A stretch of DNA of 64,000 nucleotides, from positions 186,001-250,000 of the forward strand of contig QQVO01000060.1 of assembly GCA_003388505.1 (NCBI GenBank), in the 5' to 3' direction. Numbering within the stretch: position 1 is the stretch's first letter; each line of letters opens with the position of its first letter. Source of the DNA: Planctomycetota bacterium. Lineage in GTDB: Bacteria; Planctomycetota; Planctomycetia; Planctomycetales; Planctomycetaceae. Below are positions 38,014-47,160 of the stretch, in pieces. Below the pieces are notes generated by a model that saw only the letters and a program-made list of their open reading frames with translations, had not been told where the DNA came from and made no database searches. Made by a program: the position numbers and the translations under genes.

Positions 38014-38627
<614 letters not shown>

Positions 38628-38825
38628 ATGCCCCTGAACACCCCGCTGATCGTCTGTCTGTCCCTGGCGCTGATGCTGGCCATCTGGGCATTGGCCCGTG
38701 AAGTCCGGCTACGGCGGGCGCTTCAGGAACTGCTGGCCCGACTGTTTGCCCGCTGGAGATCCCCCGATGAGAAGACACCTGTTGGTGATGCTGACGCTGA
38801 TGATCGGCATCACCGGTTGCGCTGA
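38628..38825 (+). CDS. small membrane protein
   Basis: 65 residues. An ideal ribosome-binding site (AGGAGG, 38618-38623) precedes the ATG. One membrane helix (TPLIVCLSLALMLAIWALAR, about 5-24) is followed by an Arg-rich amphipathic stretch and a polar tail. The 3' part overlaps the start of the lipoprotein gene in another frame by 59 bases, so the two are coupled. No family is recognised. The strong start signal makes it probably real. Confidence 0.65.
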   Translation: MPLNTPLIVCLSLALMLAIWALAREVRLRRALQELLARLFARWRSPDEKTPVGDADADDRHHRLR

Positions 38826-39306
38826 CGACAGTGCCGAAGTTGCCCGCGTCGCCGAGCAGGCTCTGCAGCAGCAGGCCGAACAGAACCAGGAAATGGTCCG
38901 GCTCAACCGCGAAGTCGCCGAGAGCACCCAGCGGCTCGTGGAAGCCGACGCCGAGGCTCGACAGGAAATCCTGTCCGCCCAGCGGGACATCCAGGCCCAG
39001 CAGCACGGCGTGAACCAGCACCGCGATGCTCTGGAGCAGGAACGTCGCGAGATCGCCGCTCAGAGACGCACCGACTCGGTCCTGGCGCCGATCCTCTACA
39101 CCCTGGGAGCGGGACTGCTCTGCCTGCTGCCTGTGGGAGTCGCCGGCCTGGTGCTGTGGCACGTCAACCGCTCTGAGGACTCCGATGTCAGCCAGCTGCT
39201 GCTGGACGATATGGTCTCCGAGCATCCGCGGCTGACGGGAGGCGACACCCTCTTCCGGCGGATCGCCTCTGCTGAGGACGCCGAGCAACCGGCTGAGTCG
39301 GCCTGA
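38767..39306 (+). CDS. coiled-coil lipoprotein with second membrane helix
   Basis: 179 residues from ATG at 38767 (GGAG eight bases ahead). The N-terminus is a lipoprotein signal with the lipobox ITGC (cysteine about residue 18). Residues of about 22-100 form a continuous Gln/Glu/Arg-rich coiled coil. A membrane helix (ILYTLGAGLLCLLPVGVAGL, about 109-128) comes next, and a short acidic tail ends the protein. It overlaps the preceding small membrane-protein gene. The pair resembles in layout, not in sequence, phage spanin genes. The function is unknown. Confidence 0.7.
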   Translation: MRRHLLVMLTLMIGITGCADDSAEVARVAEQALQQQAEQNQEMVRLNREVAESTQRLVEADAEARQEILSAQRDIQAQQHGVNQHRDALEQERREIAAQRRTDSVLAPILYTLGAGLLCLLPVGVAGLVLWHVNRSEDSDVSQLLLDDMVSEHPRLTGGDTLFRRIASAEDAEQPAESA

Positions 39307-39347
39307 CTGAGAACCATCAAACAAAACCATCAACGGAGAACCTACCC

Positions 39348-40085
39348 ATGCTGAACCTGATGCTCCACTGTGGCGCTCATCACGCCGACAGGCAGGAAGT
39401 CCTCTGTGCTCCCACGCCGGACCGGACGAAGACCTGGGTGCCGATCCCTCACCACCGGCTGCTGGACTTGGTCGAAAGAACTCTGGGAGACCACGGTTTC
39501 GATGTCGTCAATCAATCGCACGGACTGTGGCACGAAGGAACGCGGTACTTCGGGCTGATGGAAGTCCAGAACGGCAAGATCCACGGCGACTATGGACTCG
39601 TGCTGGGATTGCGGAACTCGCACGACAAGTCATTCCCCGCCGGGCTCGCTTTGGGGTCTGGGGTTTTCATCTGCGACAACTTGGCCTTTAGTGGCGAAGT
39701 GACAATTGCCCGCAAGCACACCCGGTTCATTCAACGGGATCTGCCGGGACTCGTGAGCCAGGCGATCAGTCGCCTCGTCGAGATGCGCGGCAAGCAGGAC
39801 CAACGGATCGAGGCGTACAGGAGCACGAGGATTAACGACCGTGCTGCTCACGATCTCATCATCCGCAGTATCGACGCCCGAGTCATTCCGGTGACAAGAG
39901 TGCCGACCGTGCTGTCCGAGTGGCGTGAGCCGAGCCACGCCGAGTTCACCGAAGGAGGCAAGACGGTGTGGCGACTATTCAACAGCTTCACGGAGGCGCT
40001 GAAGGGCCGAAGCCTGGCAGCGCTGCCGACGCAAACGATGAGTTTGCACGGCTTGATGGATGCGGTGTGTGGGTTGGTGGCGTGA
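39348..40085 (+). CDS. DUF932-like phage/plasmid protein
   Basis: 245 residues, a soluble protein. The middle part (GLVLGLRNSHDKSFPAGLAL, then SGVFICDNLAFSGEVTIARKH, about 84-125) matches the pattern of DUF932, where a conserved 'rNSHDkS...G..vFVCdNla' region is typical of proteins carried by phages and plasmids and near DNA-handling genes. The role is unknown; some members resemble single-strand annealing or replication accessory proteins. GGAG sits eight or so bases before the ATG. It is 40 bases after the lipoprotein gene and convergent with the double-PIN gene. Confidence 0.7.
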   Translation: MLNLMLHCGAHHADRQEVLCAPTPDRTKTWVPIPHHRLLDLVERTLGDHGFDVVNQSHGLWHEGTRYFGLMEVQNGKIHGDYGLVLGLRNSHDKSFPAGLALGSGVFICDNLAFSGEVTIARKHTRFIQRDLPGLVSQAISRLVEMRGKQDQRIEAYRSTRINDRAAHDLIIRSIDARVIPVTRVPTVLSEWREPSHAEFTEGGKTVWRLFNSFTEALKGRSLAALPTQTMSLHGLMDAVCGLVA

Positions 40086-40186
40086 CTCGACCGTGCGCCG
40101 ATTCGTGCGACGGGCTCAGTAGACGCGGCCGCCACGCTGCTGCCGAGCGATAGTTCTCGATACAACAACATTCGTTTTATTCGACG

Positions 40187-42682
40187 TCAACCAGAACTGG
40201 AGGACTGACGAAAAGTGGGATCGAATAGAAACTCGCGTGATGGGTAATCAGCATGCCATGGTAGCGACACCGGATCGCCGAAGTTCTGCGCGAGGATCAA
40301 ACTCGGCGTTGGAACGCTCATGGCATCTAGCCCACTCAAATCACAAGGAAAATCACGTGAGTCAATTGCGGTACGAGTATTCTGACCGATCCACAGCGTG
40401 ACGCCTGGTCCGCTCGAATCGACCATTTGCATCCAGTGGACATCTTGATCTCCAATGAGGTTTGCGGATTGTCCATCGTTCTGTTCCTTGTGAGACATCA
40501 TGGCATGCATCGGACGTTCCGCTGAAAACCAGCCCGGAAGTACTCGCATCTGCGAGTTGTGGACGTCAAACAACCAACACGCGAACTGAGTCCGCAACGC
40601 GTGCCTCGGCAGCGCGTTTACCGCCCCTTCAAAGTCAAGCCGGACGAAAAGAGCAGTACTTTCAAACCCGGCTCGCTTCATGTTGGGATTTACTTCGGGC
40701 TCACGAAGTTCCATCGTCTGCCCGGTAGTTGCGCCAAAGTGCCACGCCCGATAGTCAGCACTCACACTCGAACACAGTGTGAAGTACTGTTCCATCATCA
40801 ACCTGTCGGCGGTTAGAAAGACACAGTCGCCGCCCTGGAGAATCGCATCGAGAAGTGCGAGGACTAACAGGCGATCGTCACGCCAGTCAGATGGCATCGC
40901 GTTGCGAGAGTTCATCGCTCTTTCCAGCCGACGATCGCCATCGCGGTATTCGAGAATGGCCATCCTCAATTCCTCGTCGGTGGGAAGACGGTGCAGGTTT
41001 TGAAGAAGTTCTGCTTCGACGAGCCTGCCAAACGATCGCTTGTGTGCAAGGAGCATTCGATAGTGATCGTGTGTTCGTTTCAGGTCCCAATCGGAACCCG
41101 GCCATTTCCAGACGGACAGCCAACTCGGTGCCTTGTCCTGAAACCGATGTGCGATCGAGTTGTTCGGCGCCGATTCGTGCGACGCGCCCCACAGATCACG
41201 CGAGGTGATCACACGATCTCGGGCTGCGAGCGCGTGAATCACCTCGTCTTCGACTGATAGTCGGAGCATTGGTTTGTCGAGAATGAAAGTGGTCCACGGT
41301 GCGGTCGATGAGATAGCGGCAGCGATACCCTCATTCGATGTGTCGTGCCACTTCTCCGGCAGTGTGAATCCCAGGCGCACATCCGTTTGGTAGGACCCCA
41401 GACTTGCACCAAACTGATAGTCCTCTGAGAGAGGGGCTGTTTCGCTGGATACGTACTCAACGCGACCGAGTCGCTCGCATGCTCGAAGCGTCAATTCAAG
41501 ATCGATCGGACAGATCTCAGCGTCATCCAGGACGTGAATCTTATTCCGAGCAAGCAATGCCACTCCTCCGAGTAGATCCTGCATCGCAGGGTGTATGCAG
41601 ATATGCAGATCGCGCGGATCGGACCAATCGACGTTCTTGGCTCCTGGTAGCCCTTTTGTCTCCAATACGTTGAGCATTTCGGTCTCGAAGCAAAAGCTGA
41701 GCGTCGTGTCCTTGAAACTCGGAGGTTCACGTCCGGCTAAGCAGACGCAGTGAACCGCCATTGGCTCGAATTCATCCGGGAGACAGCGCCTCGTCCCGGA
41801 AGCAGGTAGTTTGACGAACTCAGCGTCGTCCGCTTCAACACAGCCTTCGAGCATTGTGCCAGCCACTGGTGCTGCCCGGCGAGGAAAGTTCAATGGTTGC
41901 TCGATGAATGCCTTCCCGATGCAGTACGCCCGGTAGTGCGTATCAAGCAGGTATCCGAACTTGTAGAATTGCTCAATGATGTCGTTGTCACGGACAAGTA
42001 GGAGCGTTTCTATTCGTCGTTCGAGCGCAAGCGCGACCGTGCGGACAACGGTGACTTCATCGAAGAGCAAATTGGGCTTGGCTGAATCAGATGCCCCCTT
42101 GCGAGCCAGAGTCACCCCACGACCGACCAAGCGCTGAAGGGCACTTTCCAGTTCGGACGGAGATGGATCACGACCTTCTCGGTCTCGGAATGCGGCTGCG
42201 GCCAGTTCGACAGCCTCCTTTCGCGTCCCAAGTAGTCGCGCGTAGTAGCGGACTCCGCGACCGAGTTCTGAGTCCATTCCCATTGGGCGGAGAACCTCGA
42301 CATTGCCGCGCCCGGTCCGAGCCGCTGCGATTGCCGAGTTGATTCGATCGTTTCCCGCCGGTGTGTACTGCCGCAGTTCGGCATCGACTGTGGGAAGGAT
42401 GATGAGCTTGTGCTGAAGAATCGCGGTCCAAAGTCGATCTGGAGCTTCGTGTCGAGGAATGAAACCGCTGTCGATGACAATCTGTAGCGGAGTCGTGACA
42501 TTCTGGATGAATTCCGCAAGTTCCTCTTCTGTGGAGTACCGCACCTTTCCGTCTCCGGGGCATCGCCATGACAATCGCGGTAGCGCATGCGGAAAATCAT
42601 CTGGATGGATGGGCTCACTCGGCTCGATCCAATCAGGACGCGATCTCGCCAGATGCCCATGTGTTACGTTGAGCTTTGCCAT
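40187..42682 (-). CDS. large protein with two PIN-nuclease-like domains
   Basis: About 831 residues from ATG at 42682 (a TTG four codons earlier is less likely). Two regions follow the PIN pattern of an Asp on the first strand, a downstream Glu, then two more Asp. In the first: D71 in IVIDSGFIP, E102 in TVDAELRQY, D208 in LLFDEVTVV and D232/D234 in LLVRDNDII. In the second: D469 in FILDKPMLR, E480 in VEDEVIHAL, D602/D603 in WRDDRLLVL and D626 in VFLTADRLM. PIN proteins are metal-dependent RNases. No antitoxin gene overlaps. It lies on the strand opposite to the other island genes, and its base composition appears lower in G+C. No family name can be given. Confidence 0.7.
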   Translation of the reverse strand: MAKLNVTHGHLARSRPDWIEPSEPIHPDDFPHALPRLSWRCPGDGKVRYSTEEELAEFIQNVTTPLQIVIDSGFIPRHEAPDRLWTAILQHKLIILPTVDAELRQYTPAGNDRINSAIAAARTGRGNVEVLRPMGMDSELGRGVRYYARLLGTRKEAVELAAAAFRDREGRDPSPSELESALQRLVGRGVTLARKGASDSAKPNLLFDEVTVVRTVALALERRIETLLLVRDNDIIEQFYKFGYLLDTHYRAYCIGKAFIEQPLNFPRRAAPVAGTMLEGCVEADDAEFVKLPASGTRRCLPDEFEPMAVHCVCLAGREPPSFKDTTLSFCFETEMLNVLETKGLPGAKNVDWSDPRDLHICIHPAMQDLLGGVALLARNKIHVLDDAEICPIDLELTLRACERLGRVEYVSSETAPLSEDYQFGASLGSYQTDVRLGFTLPEKWHDTSNEGIAAAISSTAPWTTFILDKPMLRLSVEDEVIHALAARDRVITSRDLWGASHESAPNNSIAHRFQDKAPSWLSVWKWPGSDWDLKRTHDHYRMLLAHKRSFGRLVEAELLQNLHRLPTDEELRMAILEYRDGDRRLERAMNSRNAMPSDWRDDRLLVLALLDAILQGGDCVFLTADRLMMEQYFTLCSSVSADYRAWHFGATTGQTMELREPEVNPNMKRAGFESTALFVRLDFEGAVNALPRHALRTQFACWLFDVHNSQMRVLPGWFSAERPMHAMMSHKEQNDGQSANLIGDQDVHWMQMVDSSGPGVTLWIGQNTRTAIDSRDFPCDLSGLDAMSVPTPSLILAQNFGDPVSLPWHADYPSREFLFDPTFRQSSSSG

Positions 42683-42919
42683 GCTTCGCACCAATCGTTG
42701 ACCGCGTCACTACTCGACACTGGTCGAACATTCCAGGTTCACGGATTCACTCACTCCCAGATCACGGAGTCTTGTAGCGACGTTTATGTCGGGCTGGCCG
42801 TACATTCAGAGATTGACTGTGAGCACGCAAGAGATCTGTCGGTGCTCTCCAATCGAACACTTCGATAGTGATACGGTCGTCTAAACGATCACAGCTTCCA
42901 ACCGCTCGGAGACCCGCCT

Positions 42920-43921
42920 ATGAGACTCGCCGCCCAGATCAAAGGCGGGTACTACCCCGCCCCACCCGATGCCGTAGCGCATGCCGCCACATTCCTCCGG
43001 CCGCCAAATGGCGGCCGTTTTTGTTTCCTGGACCCGTGTTGCGGCGAGGGCGCTGCGCTGCAGCAAATCGCCGAAATACTCAATGCCGCCGCTGACAACG
43101 TGTACGGCATCGAACTCGACCCGGAACGCGTCGCCACAACTCAATCGCTGCTCCCGGACTCACACATCCTCGGTCCAGCCAGCGCATTAGGTGTTGCCTG
43201 CACGCGCAAGTCGTTCTCACTTGCCTGGGTGAATCCCCCCTTCGACGACCAGATTTCAGGCGGCGACCGTGTGGAGCTCGAGTTCCTGCGGCAGATGATC
43301 GACTGGATCGTTCCCGGCGGCGTCATCTGCTTCGTAATCCCCGAATCGACGTCCAACCACTGGTCGTTCCGGCAGCTGTTTATTCAGTGGTTCGAGGAGA
43401 TTTCGATCGAGCCATTCCCCGAGCACTGCCGCCCCTACAATGAGGTGATCGTGTTCGGACGGCGACTCGACCGGGCCCGGTCTCCCTGGTCGCTCAACTG
43501 GAATCACGAACTGCAGCTGCCGCACATGTACGACATTCCAACCGGCCGGAAGCCCACCCGCTTCATCAAGGTCGAACTGACGGAGGCCGAATTGCGGGAC
43601 GCGCTGCGGGTGTCACCTCTCCAGCGTCATCTGCAGCCGCATGCAGATTCGCTGCTTGTCGAACCGCCGCTCAGCCTCGGCAAGGGACATATCGCGCTGC
43701 TGCTGGCGTCCGGTCATCTGGACGGCATCGTGCAGCCGGAGGGAGAACCGCCGCATGTCGTCCGGGGGACGGCGAAGAAGACGCAGTACGTTGCGGGTGT
43801 CGAACAGTCCGATAACGCGGACGGTTCCGTCACCACCAAAACCTGTCTCAGCGAGAAGATCACGCTCACTGTCCGGGCTGTCGGCGTCGACGGCCGGATC
43901 AGGACCTTTGAAGGAGGATAG
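42920..43921 (+). CDS. DUF6094-like SAM-dependent DNA adenine methyltransferase
   Basis: 333 residues. It has the class-I methyltransferase motif I FLDPCCGEG (about 36-44), the acidic end of strand 2 GIELDPERV, and the catalytic NPPF (105-108) typical of N6-adenine or N4-cytosine DNA methylation. The start GGYYPAPPDAVAHAA resembles proteins annotated as DUF6094, found in mobile elements next to SNF2-type helicases. There is no recognisable target-recognition domain; the C-terminal 140 residues are unassigned. GGAG precedes the ATG. The next gene starts two bases after the stop, so they are in one operon with the helicase. Confidence 0.82.
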   Translation: MRLAAQIKGGYYPAPPDAVAHAATFLRPPNGGRFCFLDPCCGEGAALQQIAEILNAAADNVYGIELDPERVATTQSLLPDSHILGPASALGVACTRKSFSLAWVNPPFDDQISGGDRVELEFLRQMIDWIVPGGVICFVIPESTSNHWSFRQLFIQWFEEISIEPFPEHCRPYNEVIVFGRRLDRARSPWSLNWNHELQLPHMYDIPTGRKPTRFIKVELTEAELRDALRVSPLQRHLQPHADSLLVEPPLSLGKGHIALLLASGHLDGIVQPEGEPPHVVRGTAKKTQYVAGVEQSDNADGSVTTKTCLSEKITLTVRAVGVDGRIRTFEGG

Positions 43922-43923
43922 AT

Positions 43924-44466
43924 TTGCCCCCAGATACGACGCAGACGGCGATCGGTTCGATCGAACTGGTCAGCCGGGACAGTTCGTTTTCGTTGCGGTG
44001 CAGCGCCTTGGCCTACGATCAGGTGGACGGGCAGCGGCCGCTGATGGTGGCGTCGCTTGCCGGGTCGCACACGTCGGTCAAGGCATTCCGGGCGGCGCTG
44101 TCCACCGGCACTACTCGGTTCCGGACCAACCTGCCGGGACACCGGACCGAACTCCGCCGCTGGCCGAACGGCTACCAGTTTCATGCGCACCGGCTTGGAT
44201 TTCAGACCTGGCAACTGCTGGCGATCGCCAATCGCACGGGACTGATTCCTACGCTCGACGACGCCGCGCTGTGGGCCGAACTGCGGAGCGAGCGGTTCAC
44301 GACACCAGTAATCCGGGATTGGCTTCCTTGGCTGAATGAGGAGTTGCAGCAGCGGCAGAAGCTGACACTGCTGCCCAACTTCCAGTGCGACGCAGCCGTG
44401 CTCAGCGCGAGCAGCGAGGATCTGGACAAGATCCTCGCCGACCGTGCGCCACTGCCGATTGGCTGA
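43924..44466 (+). CDS. hypothetical protein between methyltransferase and helicase
   Basis: 180 residues from a TTG whose choice is decided by a strong Shine-Dalgarno sequence (AGGAGG, six bases upstream) inside the end of the methyltransferase gene. It is soluble, with no known family. It has a mixed alpha/beta N-terminal half (SIELVSRDSSFSLRCSALAY) and a Trp/Leu-rich helical end (IRDWLPWLNEELQQRQKL). Position in the middle of a methyltransferase-helicase operon suggests a shared task, but the role is unknown. Confidence 0.68.
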   Translation: MPPDTTQTAIGSIELVSRDSSFSLRCSALAYDQVDGQRPLMVASLAGSHTSVKAFRAALSTGTTRFRTNLPGHRTELRRWPNGYQFHAHRLGFQTWQLLAIANRTGLIPTLDDAALWAELRSERFTTPVIRDWLPWLNEELQQRQKLTLLPNFQCDAAVLSASSEDLDKILADRAPLPIG

Positions 44467-44490
44467 CATTCCAAACGAGGAGAATTGACT

Positions 44491-46605
44491 TTGCACAACT
44501 GCGACACACTCGATGATTACCTGACCCGATTCGGACCGCTACTGGGGCAGCAGGCCCAGCGGTCGATGGCACCACTCCATGTTCCCGGCCGGGACGAACC
44601 GGAACTGCCCCGGTTCAACCGGTTCCCGTTCGAGCCGCAGGTGCACGTCATCACGGCCTCCGTCAAAGCGCTCCGGCGGCAGAAGGCGCTGCTGATGGTG
44701 GGCGAGATGGGCACCGGGAAGACCCTGATGGGCATGGCGGCCGTCCATGCCCATGCCGCCGGGAAGCCGTACCAGGCGCTGGTGTTCTGCCCCGGCCAGC
44801 TCTGCAAGAAATGGGAACGGGAGATCCTGAGTACGATCCCCGGAGCCCAGGTCCGTCAGATCCGATCGTTCCGCGATCTGCTGGACTTTCCGCGAACGGT
44901 GAACCAGCCGACCTGGTCGATCATCTCCCGCGATCGCGCCAAACTCGGTGCGAAGTGGCGGCCGGCATTCATCATGAAACACGGCCAGGCACTCTGCCCC
45001 GACTGTGGCCAACCCGCGATAGATAAAAAAAGGACCCTGATTTCGCCGAAACAACTCGACCGCAAGAAGCACATCTGCCTCGCCACAATCACCGATCCTG
45101 TGACGGGGCAGGAACGCGAATGTGGTGCAGCGCTCTGGCAGTACACACGCGAGATCAATCGCTGGGAACCGGCGCGATTCATCCAGAAACGCCTGCGCGG
45201 CGTGTTTGACTACCTGATCCTGGACGAAGTCCATGAGGAAAAGGGAGCCAACACCGCCCAGGCCAACGCCGCCGGGTCGCTCGTTGCCGCCTGTAAAAAG
45301 GTGATTGCGCTCACCGGGACGCTGATCGGCGGCTACGCGGAGCATCTCCGGCCGCTGCTGTTCCGGCTGTGCCCCCGGACTCTGGTGGAAGAAGGCTTTC
45401 AGTGGAATCAGGTGACGGCGTTTTCCGAACGCTACGGCCGGATCGAGACCAGGATCATCGAGCGGGACGGAGGTGGCGTGGAAAACCGGATGAGCCGGGG
45501 CGGGACGACGAAGGTGAAAACCGTCCGGCCCGGCATCATGCCGACGCTGTTCGGACGGCACCTGATCGGCAACACCGTGTTCCTGTCGCTGGAAGAAGTC
45601 GCTGATAACCTGCCCGAACTGCGGGAGATCGTCGAGCCGGTCGCCATGGATGACGAGACGGCCGGTGAGTACCGGCGGATCGAGCGGCACATCACGGCCG
45701 CCCTGAAGCAGATGGTGGTCCGGGGCGATCGACGACTCCTGGGAACGATGCTCAACACGCTGCTGGCGTATCCGGATCATCCCTACGGCTGGGACTCGGT
45801 CGGCTACTGGGACCGGGACGACGACGGCAACAAGCTCAAGTTCCACGAGGTAACGAAGCCGAAGAACCTGCATTCGACGACGATCCGGCCCAAGGAACGG
45901 AAGCTGATCGAACTGGTGCAGCGGGAGAAGGATCAGGGACGGCAGTCGTGGGTGTTCGTGCAGCTCACCGACAAACGGGACGTCGCCGGTCGGCTGGAGC
46001 GGCTGCTGTCTGCTCAGGGTCTGTCGGTGAAAGTGCTCCGCTCATCAGTGCCGTTGGCTCAGCGTGAAGAATGGATCGCCGAGAATGGACCCGATGCCGA
46101 CGTCGTGATCTCGCATCCGAAGCTGGTGGAGACCGGTCTCGACCTGTTCGACAAGGGCGGCCGCCACAACTTCTCGACGCTGATCTTCTACGAAACCGGC
46201 TACAACACGTTCACGCTGCGGCAGGCGTCGCGGCGTTCGTGGCGGATCGGGCAGCAACTCCCCTGCCGGGTGATCTATCTCTACTACCAGGGGACGATGC
46301 AGGAACGGGCGATGACGCTGATGGGCCGCAAGCTCACGGCTGCTCAGGCGGTGGAAGGCCGGTTCTCCAGCGACGGGCTGGCGGCGCTGGCCGGAGACGA
46401 TGGCAGCGTCGAGATGGCGCTGGCGAAGAGCCTGGCCGAGCGATTGGACGATCTCGACGCTCAGCGAGCCTGGTCGAAGCTGGGGGAATCGAACGTCGTT
46501 GTCGACGAGGCTGAAGGATCGGAAACGTTCCTGCCTTCTGAGCCGGACGACGACGAGGCCGTGCTGGAATCGCCGGTCGCGGCGGGGTTTCTGTTTGCGT
46601 GTTGA
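44491..46605 (+). CDS. SNF2-type DEAD-box helicase with zinc-finger insert
   Basis: 704 residues from TTG at 44491, seven bases after GAGGAGA (a TTG at 44485 is too close). A superfamily 2 ATPase: Walker A GEMGTGKT (71-78), DEVH Walker B in YLILDEVHEEKG (about 241-252), motif III-like ALTGTLIGGY, and the C-terminal RecA lobe with QASRRSWRIGQQLPC, the SNF2 motif VI. A zinc-binding insert (CPDC and a later C...C pair, about 169-211) sits between motif Ia and II. Probably translocates on DNA. It ends the three-gene operon with the methyltransferase. It has no nuclease domain. Confidence 0.85.
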   Translation: MHNCDTLDDYLTRFGPLLGQQAQRSMAPLHVPGRDEPELPRFNRFPFEPQVHVITASVKALRRQKALLMVGEMGTGKTLMGMAAVHAHAAGKPYQALVFCPGQLCKKWEREILSTIPGAQVRQIRSFRDLLDFPRTVNQPTWSIISRDRAKLGAKWRPAFIMKHGQALCPDCGQPAIDKKRTLISPKQLDRKKHICLATITDPVTGQERECGAALWQYTREINRWEPARFIQKRLRGVFDYLILDEVHEEKGANTAQANAAGSLVAACKKVIALTGTLIGGYAEHLRPLLFRLCPRTLVEEGFQWNQVTAFSERYGRIETRIIERDGGGVENRMSRGGTTKVKTVRPGIMPTLFGRHLIGNTVFLSLEEVADNLPELREIVEPVAMDDETAGEYRRIERHITAALKQMVVRGDRRLLGTMLNTLLAYPDHPYGWDSVGYWDRDDDGNKLKFHEVTKPKNLHSTTIRPKERKLIELVQREKDQGRQSWVFVQLTDKRDVAGRLERLLSAQGLSVKVLRSSVPLAQREEWIAENGPDADVVISHPKLVETGLDLFDKGGRHNFSTLIFYETGYNTFTLRQASRRSWRIGQQLPCRVIYLYYQGTMQERAMTLMGRKLTAAQAVEGRFSSDGLAALAGDDGSVEMALAKSLAERLDDLDAQRAWSKLGESNVVVDEAEGSETFLPSEPDDDEAVLESPVAAGFLFAC

Positions 46606-47160
46606 CGGGGATTCGAGGTTGAGCGAGTGACTGCGTTCCCGCAAGGTGTCCGTGCTTCTGCCAAGGCATGCTCAGGCCGATGTGACCGGAGCAGTCGCCC
46701 CATGCGACGGAACTGCTTCCGGTGAAAATGCCCGACGCAGGTTGCGCGTGCGCGAAGGTGCGTTCGGGGTTGTCGACCGGGAGCGTGTTGCGCCAACGGC
46801 GACTGACCCGCAAATGTTGTGAAATCCCGTAGTCAATTTGATTGCGTTGTTGGATTGAAACCGGAATCATCGTTGGCAGCCCCCCGACTCCATCGGGTGG
46901 AGCGCCTCCGCACCTATGACTGGACTTGCTCCAGTGACTTGGAGGTCGAGAAACGGATGAAAAGCTCCAACCGCATGATCAGGGGCCCTTCTCATCCTGA
47001 CGATGTTGCGTTGTGCAGCTCGGCAGCTGTATCGGATGTGGAATCACGTTGTGCGCCATCTGAACCGACGTCTGTCGGCCACAAGTGTGCGCTTCGGCGG
47101 TCTGCGTGTTGCAGGATCGGCGTCGCGTGGTACTCTCGCTCGCACAACCAGGGGGACACG
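46606..47160. other. gap with one copy of a dispersed motif, no gene supported
   Basis: About 555 bases between the helicase and C45 genes. A copy of the CGGTGTTGTCGACCG-type motif lies at 46763-46781 (TTCGGGGTTGTCGACCGGG). No tRNA half or attachment site was found that would mark the right island border. Confidence 0.45.

Follow-up and report, generated by a model that had tools for sequence, protein, structure and literature searches.

A three-gene operon of a methyltransferase, a conserved third protein and an SNF2 ATPase

The DNA analysed here, which we call the window, is a stretch of 64,000 nucleotides (nt) from a planctomycete draft genome of 6.78 Mb in 78 contigs (positions 186001–250000 of contig C4). 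At positions 42920–46605 it carries three open reading frames (ORFs), M, X and S, all on the + strand and nearly touching:

42920–43921, + strand: M, a predicted DUF6094 gamma-class (TaqI/BseCI-like) adenine DNA methyltransferase with the motifs GYYP, DPCCGEG and NPPF
43924–44466, + strand: X, a conserved third component of 180 residues whose family Pfam and NCBIfam do not name, modelled as a small beta barrel with C-terminal helices
44485–46605 (start possibly 44491), + strand: S, an SWI2/SNF2 ATPase/translocase with a four-cysteine insert (C171, C174, C198 and C213)

M and X are separated by 2 nt, and X and S by 24 or 18 nt, depending on whether the start codon of S is the TTG at 44491 or that at 44485. 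Judged by eye, the Shine-Dalgarno sequences of X (AAGGAGG, ending 6 nt before 43924) and S (GAGGAG, 8 nt before 44491) are strong and that of M (GGAG, 42908–42911) is moderate; a first-pass annotation made from the letters alone had called all three strong, which holds for X and S but not for M. Its description of the products as an adenine-methyltransferase-like protein, a 180-residue unknown and an SNF2 ATPase agrees with Pfam, which returns DUF6094, no match and SNF2-rel_dom, respectively.

M belongs to the Pfam family DUF6094 (PF19587), which it matches with 76.5 bits against a cut-off of 22.8. This family is annotated 'uncharacterised', and a full-text search for DUF6094 in the open-licence part of PubMed Central (PMC) returned no papers. 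A TP-type motif, GYYPAPP, lies at residues 10–16 and NPPF at residues 105–108; NPP is kept in 98–99% of about 100 M homologues and is followed by Y in 93% and by F, as in the window, in 6%. Among solved structures the M profile found BseCI (5e-9) and TaqI (1.8e-5). The structural model of M (predicted local distance difference test score (pLDDT) 86.4, below 50 at residues 243–252; predicted template modelling score (pTM) 0.71) matched a Listeria class I methyltransferase first (3.6e-9), followed by BseCI, CamA, TaqI and EcoKI HsdM, with query-length TM-scores not exceeding 0.45, in keeping with a shared core. With 333 residues, of which the C-terminal 130 form a small extension, M is too short for the large recognition domains of BseCI, TaqI, CamA and EcoKI HsdM, and target recognition would be supplied by X or S. 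A function as an rRNA methylase was ruled out, as M scored 15.9 bits against EmtA, whose cut-off is 625.

S matches the Pfam families SNF2-rel_dom, ResIII and Helicase_C, all above their cut-offs, as well as phrog_62, 'DNA helicase', in PHROGs (4e-36), and resembles motors of the SWR1/INO80/SsoRad54 type. Across about 117 homologues the Walker-A G-x-G-K is invariant (100%), the DExH box retains DE in 100% and H in 95%, and the two motif-VI arginines are kept in 100% and 99%. The catalytic motifs of both M and S are thus intact in the window and conserved across homologues; a loss of conserved catalytic residues, which the first-pass annotation had named as the sign of a wrong call, was not found. 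Its zinc-finger insert stands as a four-cysteine insert, and the almost all-or-none retention of these cysteines among relatives points to a zinc site, the metal itself being the presumed part.

X had no match at E ≤ 0.1 in Pfam, NCBIfam, PADLOC or PHROGs, and none of 76 aligned X members matched Pfam or NCBIfam at E ≤ 0.01. We built a profile from nine X-like proteins of other genomes, using their rows in an alignment of which the X of this genome had been part, and searched 13,038 ORFs, all of them from the loci retrieved around S or M, whose flanks extend up to 10 kb. This profile found the window X at E = 1.3e-11. All 90 matches at E ≤ 1e-3, the nine members included, lay on the same strand as another M or S gene and within 3.5 kb of it, and in six (five if a contig present twice, as L038 and L054, is counted once) X is fused to S in one polypeptide. 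Trp133 is present in all 88 aligned homologues and Pro128 in 97%. Judged from these alignments, X is a real family, homologous across the cassette loci. In 170 genomes of the order, an X search returned the genome itself and two weak matches (E about 4e-4), which we took as unrelated because neither locus gave an M or S homologue.

The model of X (pLDDT 93.7, pTM 0.86) has a small beta barrel at about residues 10–104, followed by helices. Foldseek gave no match at E ≤ 1e-3 in the PDB (best 0.01) and none in BFVD (best 2e-3). The best VIA match (Z 5.8, root-mean-square deviation 3.8, 87 aligned) covered residues 9–103 only, and such a Z indicates a common arrangement only. Fold matches to Hcp/tail-tube, PilZ and split-barrel proteins were middling, fell within residues 1–104 and were set aside for function.

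The cassette recurs on mobile DNA of many bacteria

Searches of genome and viral contigs with a single S protein found no relatives. A query alignment of ten S proteins did find them, and with it we fetched the best 80 of 552 relatives in species-representative genomes. A partner was counted as present if it lay within 6 kb of S on the same strand, and organisms were read from record names. M stood beside S in 69 of these 80 loci, X in 66 and both in 64, beyond chance, which confirmed the tight three-gene operon of the first-pass annotation. The gene orders were M-X-S (41), X-M-S (20), M-S (5), M followed by a fused XS (2), X-S (2), M-M-X-S (1) and S alone (9). Across 44 M-X-S combinations the median gap was 6.5 nt from M to X (27 of 44 at most 50 nt) and 95.5 nt from X to S.

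Among 45 loci on viral contigs, S was found in 43, M in 20, X in 17 and both partners in 14; the seven closest contigs (L131–L134, L136, L139 and L146; 47–53% identity) carried M-X-S in six cases, the seventh being cut at the contig edge. A further 14 genome or plasmid loci gave S in ten, M in nine, X in eight and both M and X in eight. Within the phylum, four of 392 genomes carried S (E ≤ 1e-40) and six carried DUF6094 (E ≤ 0.001), and all four genomes with S had M close by on the same contig.

Plasmid records yielded 90 plasmids with S and 69 with M. Forty-nine of the 70 listed S plasmids, the conjugative element pKLC102 among them, were also among the 60 listed M plasmids, in 42 cases with the two genes no more than 6 kb apart. 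That element is an example of the plasmids and integrative and conjugative elements (ICEs) that carry DUF6094 methyltransferases, the family to which M belongs above cut-off, and has X, M and S in a row. In all six plasmid regions that we opened (pKLC102, Vibrio, Rhizobium, Thermus, Thermoanaerobacterium and Paenibacillus) a gene annotated as DUF6094 or as a methyltransferase lay close to S. The cassette is therefore not private to this genome: many bacteria have it, carried by plasmids, ICE-like elements or phage-like contigs.

A probable split methylase–helicase dyad with an added gene

In their survey of polyvalent proteins, Iyer et al. 2017 (PMC5512222) describe a methylase–helicase dyad, typified by DarB, in which an EcoKI/TaqI-like adenine methylase with an N-terminal TP-type motif and NPP(Y/F) is coupled to an SWI2/SNF2 ATPase on mobile elements and phages; the dyad section states a gene-neighbourhood form and mentions no separate third gene. 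M and S have the same features, with a TaqI/EcoKI-like methylase carrying the TP-type motif and NPP(Y/F) and an SWI2/SNF2 ATPase in one neighbourhood on mobile DNA. DarB itself is one giant polypeptide with an N-terminal LPD36, whereas the genes here are separate. LPD36 would have no room in M, which has only about 10 residues before the TP-type motif, and is predicted as four helices, whereas the extra protein X is modelled as a beta barrel. DarB also travels with DNA, which it shields in cis from type I restriction. Similarity to DarB is weak but both DarB and M match phrog_9133, and in the same region of its profile, so that the trio is best read, from sequence comparison, as a DarB-kind dyad that has been split into genes and joined by the conserved third gene X. 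A literature search turned up no study of an M-X-S trio, which is weak evidence given that it covered open-licence PMC alone.

Two defence systems have related parts. DISARM joins a DNA methylase to an SNF2-like helicase, with a core of DrmA, DrmB and DrmC alongside the DISARM methylase. Among the five genes at 39.3–46.6 kb, none matched DrmA, DrmB, DrmC or the DISARM methylase at E ≤ 0.1, and S matched DISARM DrmD at E = 0.021 only. M matches the model mad2 of MADS, the methylation-associated defence system, in PADLOC at E = 2e-16, but scores 19.1 bits against the curated NCBIfam MAD2 model, whose cut-off is 720, and no other MADS model of PADLOC matched the same five genes. Membership of DISARM and of MADS was rejected on these PADLOC and NCBIfam scores.

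The surrounding element and its other copies

The operon lies in a probable integrated element, the other features of which are the following:

38141–38210, − strand: remnant, the 5′ end of a tyrosine-recombinase gene (label by eye), reading MPKSTTKCRARKSKPQK..., matching the start of an intact recombinase gene on contig C29 with 87% identity over 70 bp
38209–38248, + strand: 5′ half of tRNA-Lys(CTT), which breaks off directly after the anticodon and has no mismatch to the intact tRNA-Lys(CTT) on C29; putative left junction (attL)
38249–39347, + strand: left end of the element, common to contig C14
39348–40085, + strand: DUF932 gene (PF06067, 36.7 bits, cut-off 23), common to the sister element
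40187–42694, − strand: PIN-like gene (by eye), a variable passenger outside the conserved module
46606–46781, no strand: sequence after S, common to the copy on contig C65; BLAST similarity stops at 46781 and close identity near 46730, and the true right end may lie farther right

ARAGORN found no complete tRNA within the window, in which Rfam also had no match at gathering scores; the tRNA-Lys(CTT) half is fused directly to non-tRNA sequence. Contig C14 shares the left end (89.3% over 1870 bp, 38216–40085, through the DUF932 gene), fused there to the 5′ half of tRNA-Lys(TTT). Just upstream of both the intact tRNA-Lys(CTT) on C29 and the intact tRNA-Lys(TTT) on C53 lies a divergent recombinase gene, of tyrosine type by eye (C29, L015 5153–6693; C53, L181 7230–8592), and the C53 recombinase, which runs off its contig, is 87% identical to that of C29 over residues 7–382. 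The tRNA-half and intact-tRNA sites would then be the left and right junctions of elements that entered two tRNA-Lys genes and restored the 5′ half. Both lysine tRNA genes appear to be targets of one element family, which enters at the anticodon region. The recombinase-start remnant just left of the tRNA half may have been left by an earlier element at this site. We found no 3′ half of tRNA-Lys(CTT) in the window with a 27-base pattern allowing up to 3 mismatches, so that the right end lies either near 46781, where the similarity to C65 stops, or, if C29 holds the right junction, beyond the contig. The C29 recombinase had no phmmer homologue (E ≤ 1e-5) in the window or in the ORFs of 139 related loci.

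A second copy of the operon, on C65, is 86–92% identical in DNA to that of the window, and its X and S proteins are 91% and 95–96% identical, respectively. Its M is interrupted near the start by a transposase-like gene (by eye) in which both C14 and C65 end (L012 1–673 and L013 1–666), which suggests that the two contigs belong to one second element. That element carries other ORFs in place of the PIN-like gene and one gene inserted between X and S, an acyltransferase-like ORF (L013 2199–3527) that we take to resemble a glycerolipid acyltransferase; the operon thus tolerates the insertion of unrelated cargo. DUF932, M, X and S, being common to both copies, look like backbone, and the genes for the PIN-like protein and the acyltransferase have the look of passengers. 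On C3 there is a fragmentary third M. After the second copy, C65 (L013 6235–14311) has a large ATPase-like ORF and then several long ORFs in a row that resemble WD40 repeats by eye.

Neighbouring genes

We counted neighbour families in the 107 loci that had S plus M or X, naming all but DUF932 from one representative each. The counts were 31 loci for SSB, 31 for Rad52, 24 for RadC, 16 for PRTRC-B, 15 for PRTRC-ThiF, 11 for a DnaG-type primase, eight for DUF932 and seven for the anti-restriction family ArdC-N. Three of ten family representatives scanned had no match; family F9, seen in 11 loci, is a resolvase by eye. PRTRC is a plasmid cassette of unknown function, and in acidobacterial loci (L060, L062 and L065) the trio adjoins its genes for ThiF and protein B. 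DUF932 homologues occurred in ten of 139 related loci. A PHROGs scan of 100 neighbour ORFs, from the seven closest viral contigs and two genome loci, gave among the matches listed two HNH endonucleases, two sigma factors and, once each, a DnaB-like helicase, a primase/helicase, exonucleases, RusA, ParB and terminase. With these neighbours, and with plasmids, ICE-like elements and phage-like contigs as carriers, a plasmid-type replication or modification module, one of the two options of the first-pass annotation, is well supported. The same contexts largely match the finding that it had said would speak against defence, namely homologues confined to plasmid or conjugation modules.

Its other option was a new defence system with the neighbouring PIN protein as nuclease, to be sought through co-occurrence of the trio with PIN or DUF932 genes. 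The trio does recur, and DUF932 with it, but the PIN gene does not. This 835-residue protein, putatively assigned to PIN by eye from its motifs, had no Pfam match at E ≤ 0.1; its gene lies in a stretch poorer in G+C (0.553 at 40001–42000) and is absent from the corresponding place on C14. At E ≤ 1e-10 it was matched in one of 392 phylum genomes, this one only, and phmmer (E ≤ 1e-3) found it in none of the 139 loci L037–L175. We therefore ruled it out as the effector of a system and regard it as an unrelated passenger. No nuclease, such as the cognate one that a restriction–modification system would keep beside its methylase, was found among the neighbour families named from representatives, F9, F10, F11 and F16 carrying no family name.

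PADLOC was run at E ≤ 1e-10 on 139 proteins encoded near the cassette in 12 of 18 prepared loci. Among the matches listed, mad8 was hit by five proteins, two PrimPol models by two each, and DpdF (9e-101), IetA (3e-43) and mad3 (3e-30) once each. Exactly five of the 12 loci share a Rad52-family cluster, defined by sequence, so that mad8 is probably a Rad52-like model, an attribution made from the agreement of the two counts. With mad8 seemingly Rad52-like and mad2 related to DUF6094, MADS may share ancestry with this mobile-element gene set.

Interpretation and alternatives

By analogy with DarB, we favour a reading in which the cassette marks the DNA of its own element, and so serves anti-restriction or establishment rather than host defence, and give it a probability of roughly 0.55. 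After the element enters or integrates, S would track along its duplex DNA using ATP, X would couple S to M, to the DNA or to both, and M, compact and lacking a large TaqI/BseCI recognition domain, would methylate the element DNA. The methylated element would then be recognized as self by the restriction systems of the host, and possibly also by its own machinery for replication and recombination. The three proteins would on this account form a complex with X as the coupling subunit and an adenine in element DNA as the substrate.

Several findings weigh against this reading. The anti-restriction role is carried over from DarB, to which similarity is weak: in a test of 201 sequences the S profile reached DarB at E = 2e-5, and the M and X profiles found nothing in it. 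SSB, Rad52 and primase neighbours suit a role in replication or recombination equally well. The association of the genes is also incomplete, with M missing within reach of S in 11 and X in 14 of the 80 genome loci. Eight of the nine S-alone loci have less than 700 bp upstream, but the ninth, L130, has 8 kb with no partner; L075 and L078 have M without X, the Thermus plasmid has the order S-M with no X found, and M and X are more than 1 kb apart in seven of the 44 M-X-S combinations. Only 14 of the 43 viral contigs with S hold the full trio. Moreover, MOB typing of the 90 S plasmids gave 66 non-mobilizable, 14 conjugative and ten mobilizable, and only 88 of 118 relatives retain all four insert cysteines of S.

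A more specific and speculative form of the self-marking reading would make the trio a three-subunit, ATP-driven DNA-marking machine, with X as the missing recognition or coupling subunit and methylation laid down along the length of the DNA, not at fixed short sites. As M consists of a catalytic core and a small C-terminal extension, it would depend on X and the SNF2 motor for processivity and for the choice of its target. We regard this version as doubtful, though worth stating.

The strongest rival, possible yet clearly less probable than self-marking, is an accessory role in replication or recombination, in which S would remodel or evict proteins on element DNA together with Rad52, SSB and RadC, and M would mark the DNA for timing or origin control instead of against restriction. 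It draws on the frequency of SSB, Rad52, RadC and DnaG-type primase genes among the 107 loci, on the DnaB, exonuclease, RusA and primase genes near the cassette in phage-like contigs, and on the resemblance of S to SWR1/INO80/SsoRad54-type motors. The close coupling of S to an adenine methylase, however, is the arrangement known from the DarB type, and ArdC-N recurs among the neighbours; both roles are compatible.

Host defence, in which M would protect the chromosome, S would sense or translocate on foreign DNA and a nuclease (PIN or another neighbour) would destroy it, appears improbable. A methylase with an SNF2 motor also occurs in DISARM, and the mad2 match of M, matches of S to DpdE (1.5e-10) and ZorD (1.3e-6), and the PADLOC matches among the neighbours point the same way. 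A passage of PMC12839542 likewise places a methylase and SNF2 motors in BREX-related systems. Yet the PIN gene was matched in this genome alone among the 392 of the phylum and in none of the 139 loci, the named neighbour families include no nuclease, M falls far below the curated MAD2 cut-off, and mad8, the sole PADLOC model to match more than two of the 139 neighbour proteins, probably owes its matches to the five loci with the Rad52-like cluster. The first-pass proposal of a new system built on the PIN nuclease is thus not supported, and the five genes scanned gave no match to a DISARM core either.

Least probable of all is that the cassette is a decayed, non-functional leftover of an immobilized island, as the lack of a recognized recombinase gene in 38249–46781, the sister copy broken by a transposase-like gene and an inserted gene, and the fragmentary M on C3 might suggest, since the window ORFs are all intact with their catalytic motifs and X and S remain close in protein sequence to their C65 copies.

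Cassette loci occur in Planctomycetota, Acidobacteria, Chloroflexi, Deltaproteobacteria, Gammaproteobacteria and Firmicutes, and Thermus plasmids carry M and S. If the cassette does mark element DNA as self, it would help to account for the passage of large elements across the restriction barriers that separate distant bacteria. As a compact set of three genes, it would also make the methylase–SNF2 partnership of DarB testable outside a virion protein of 2,255 residues.

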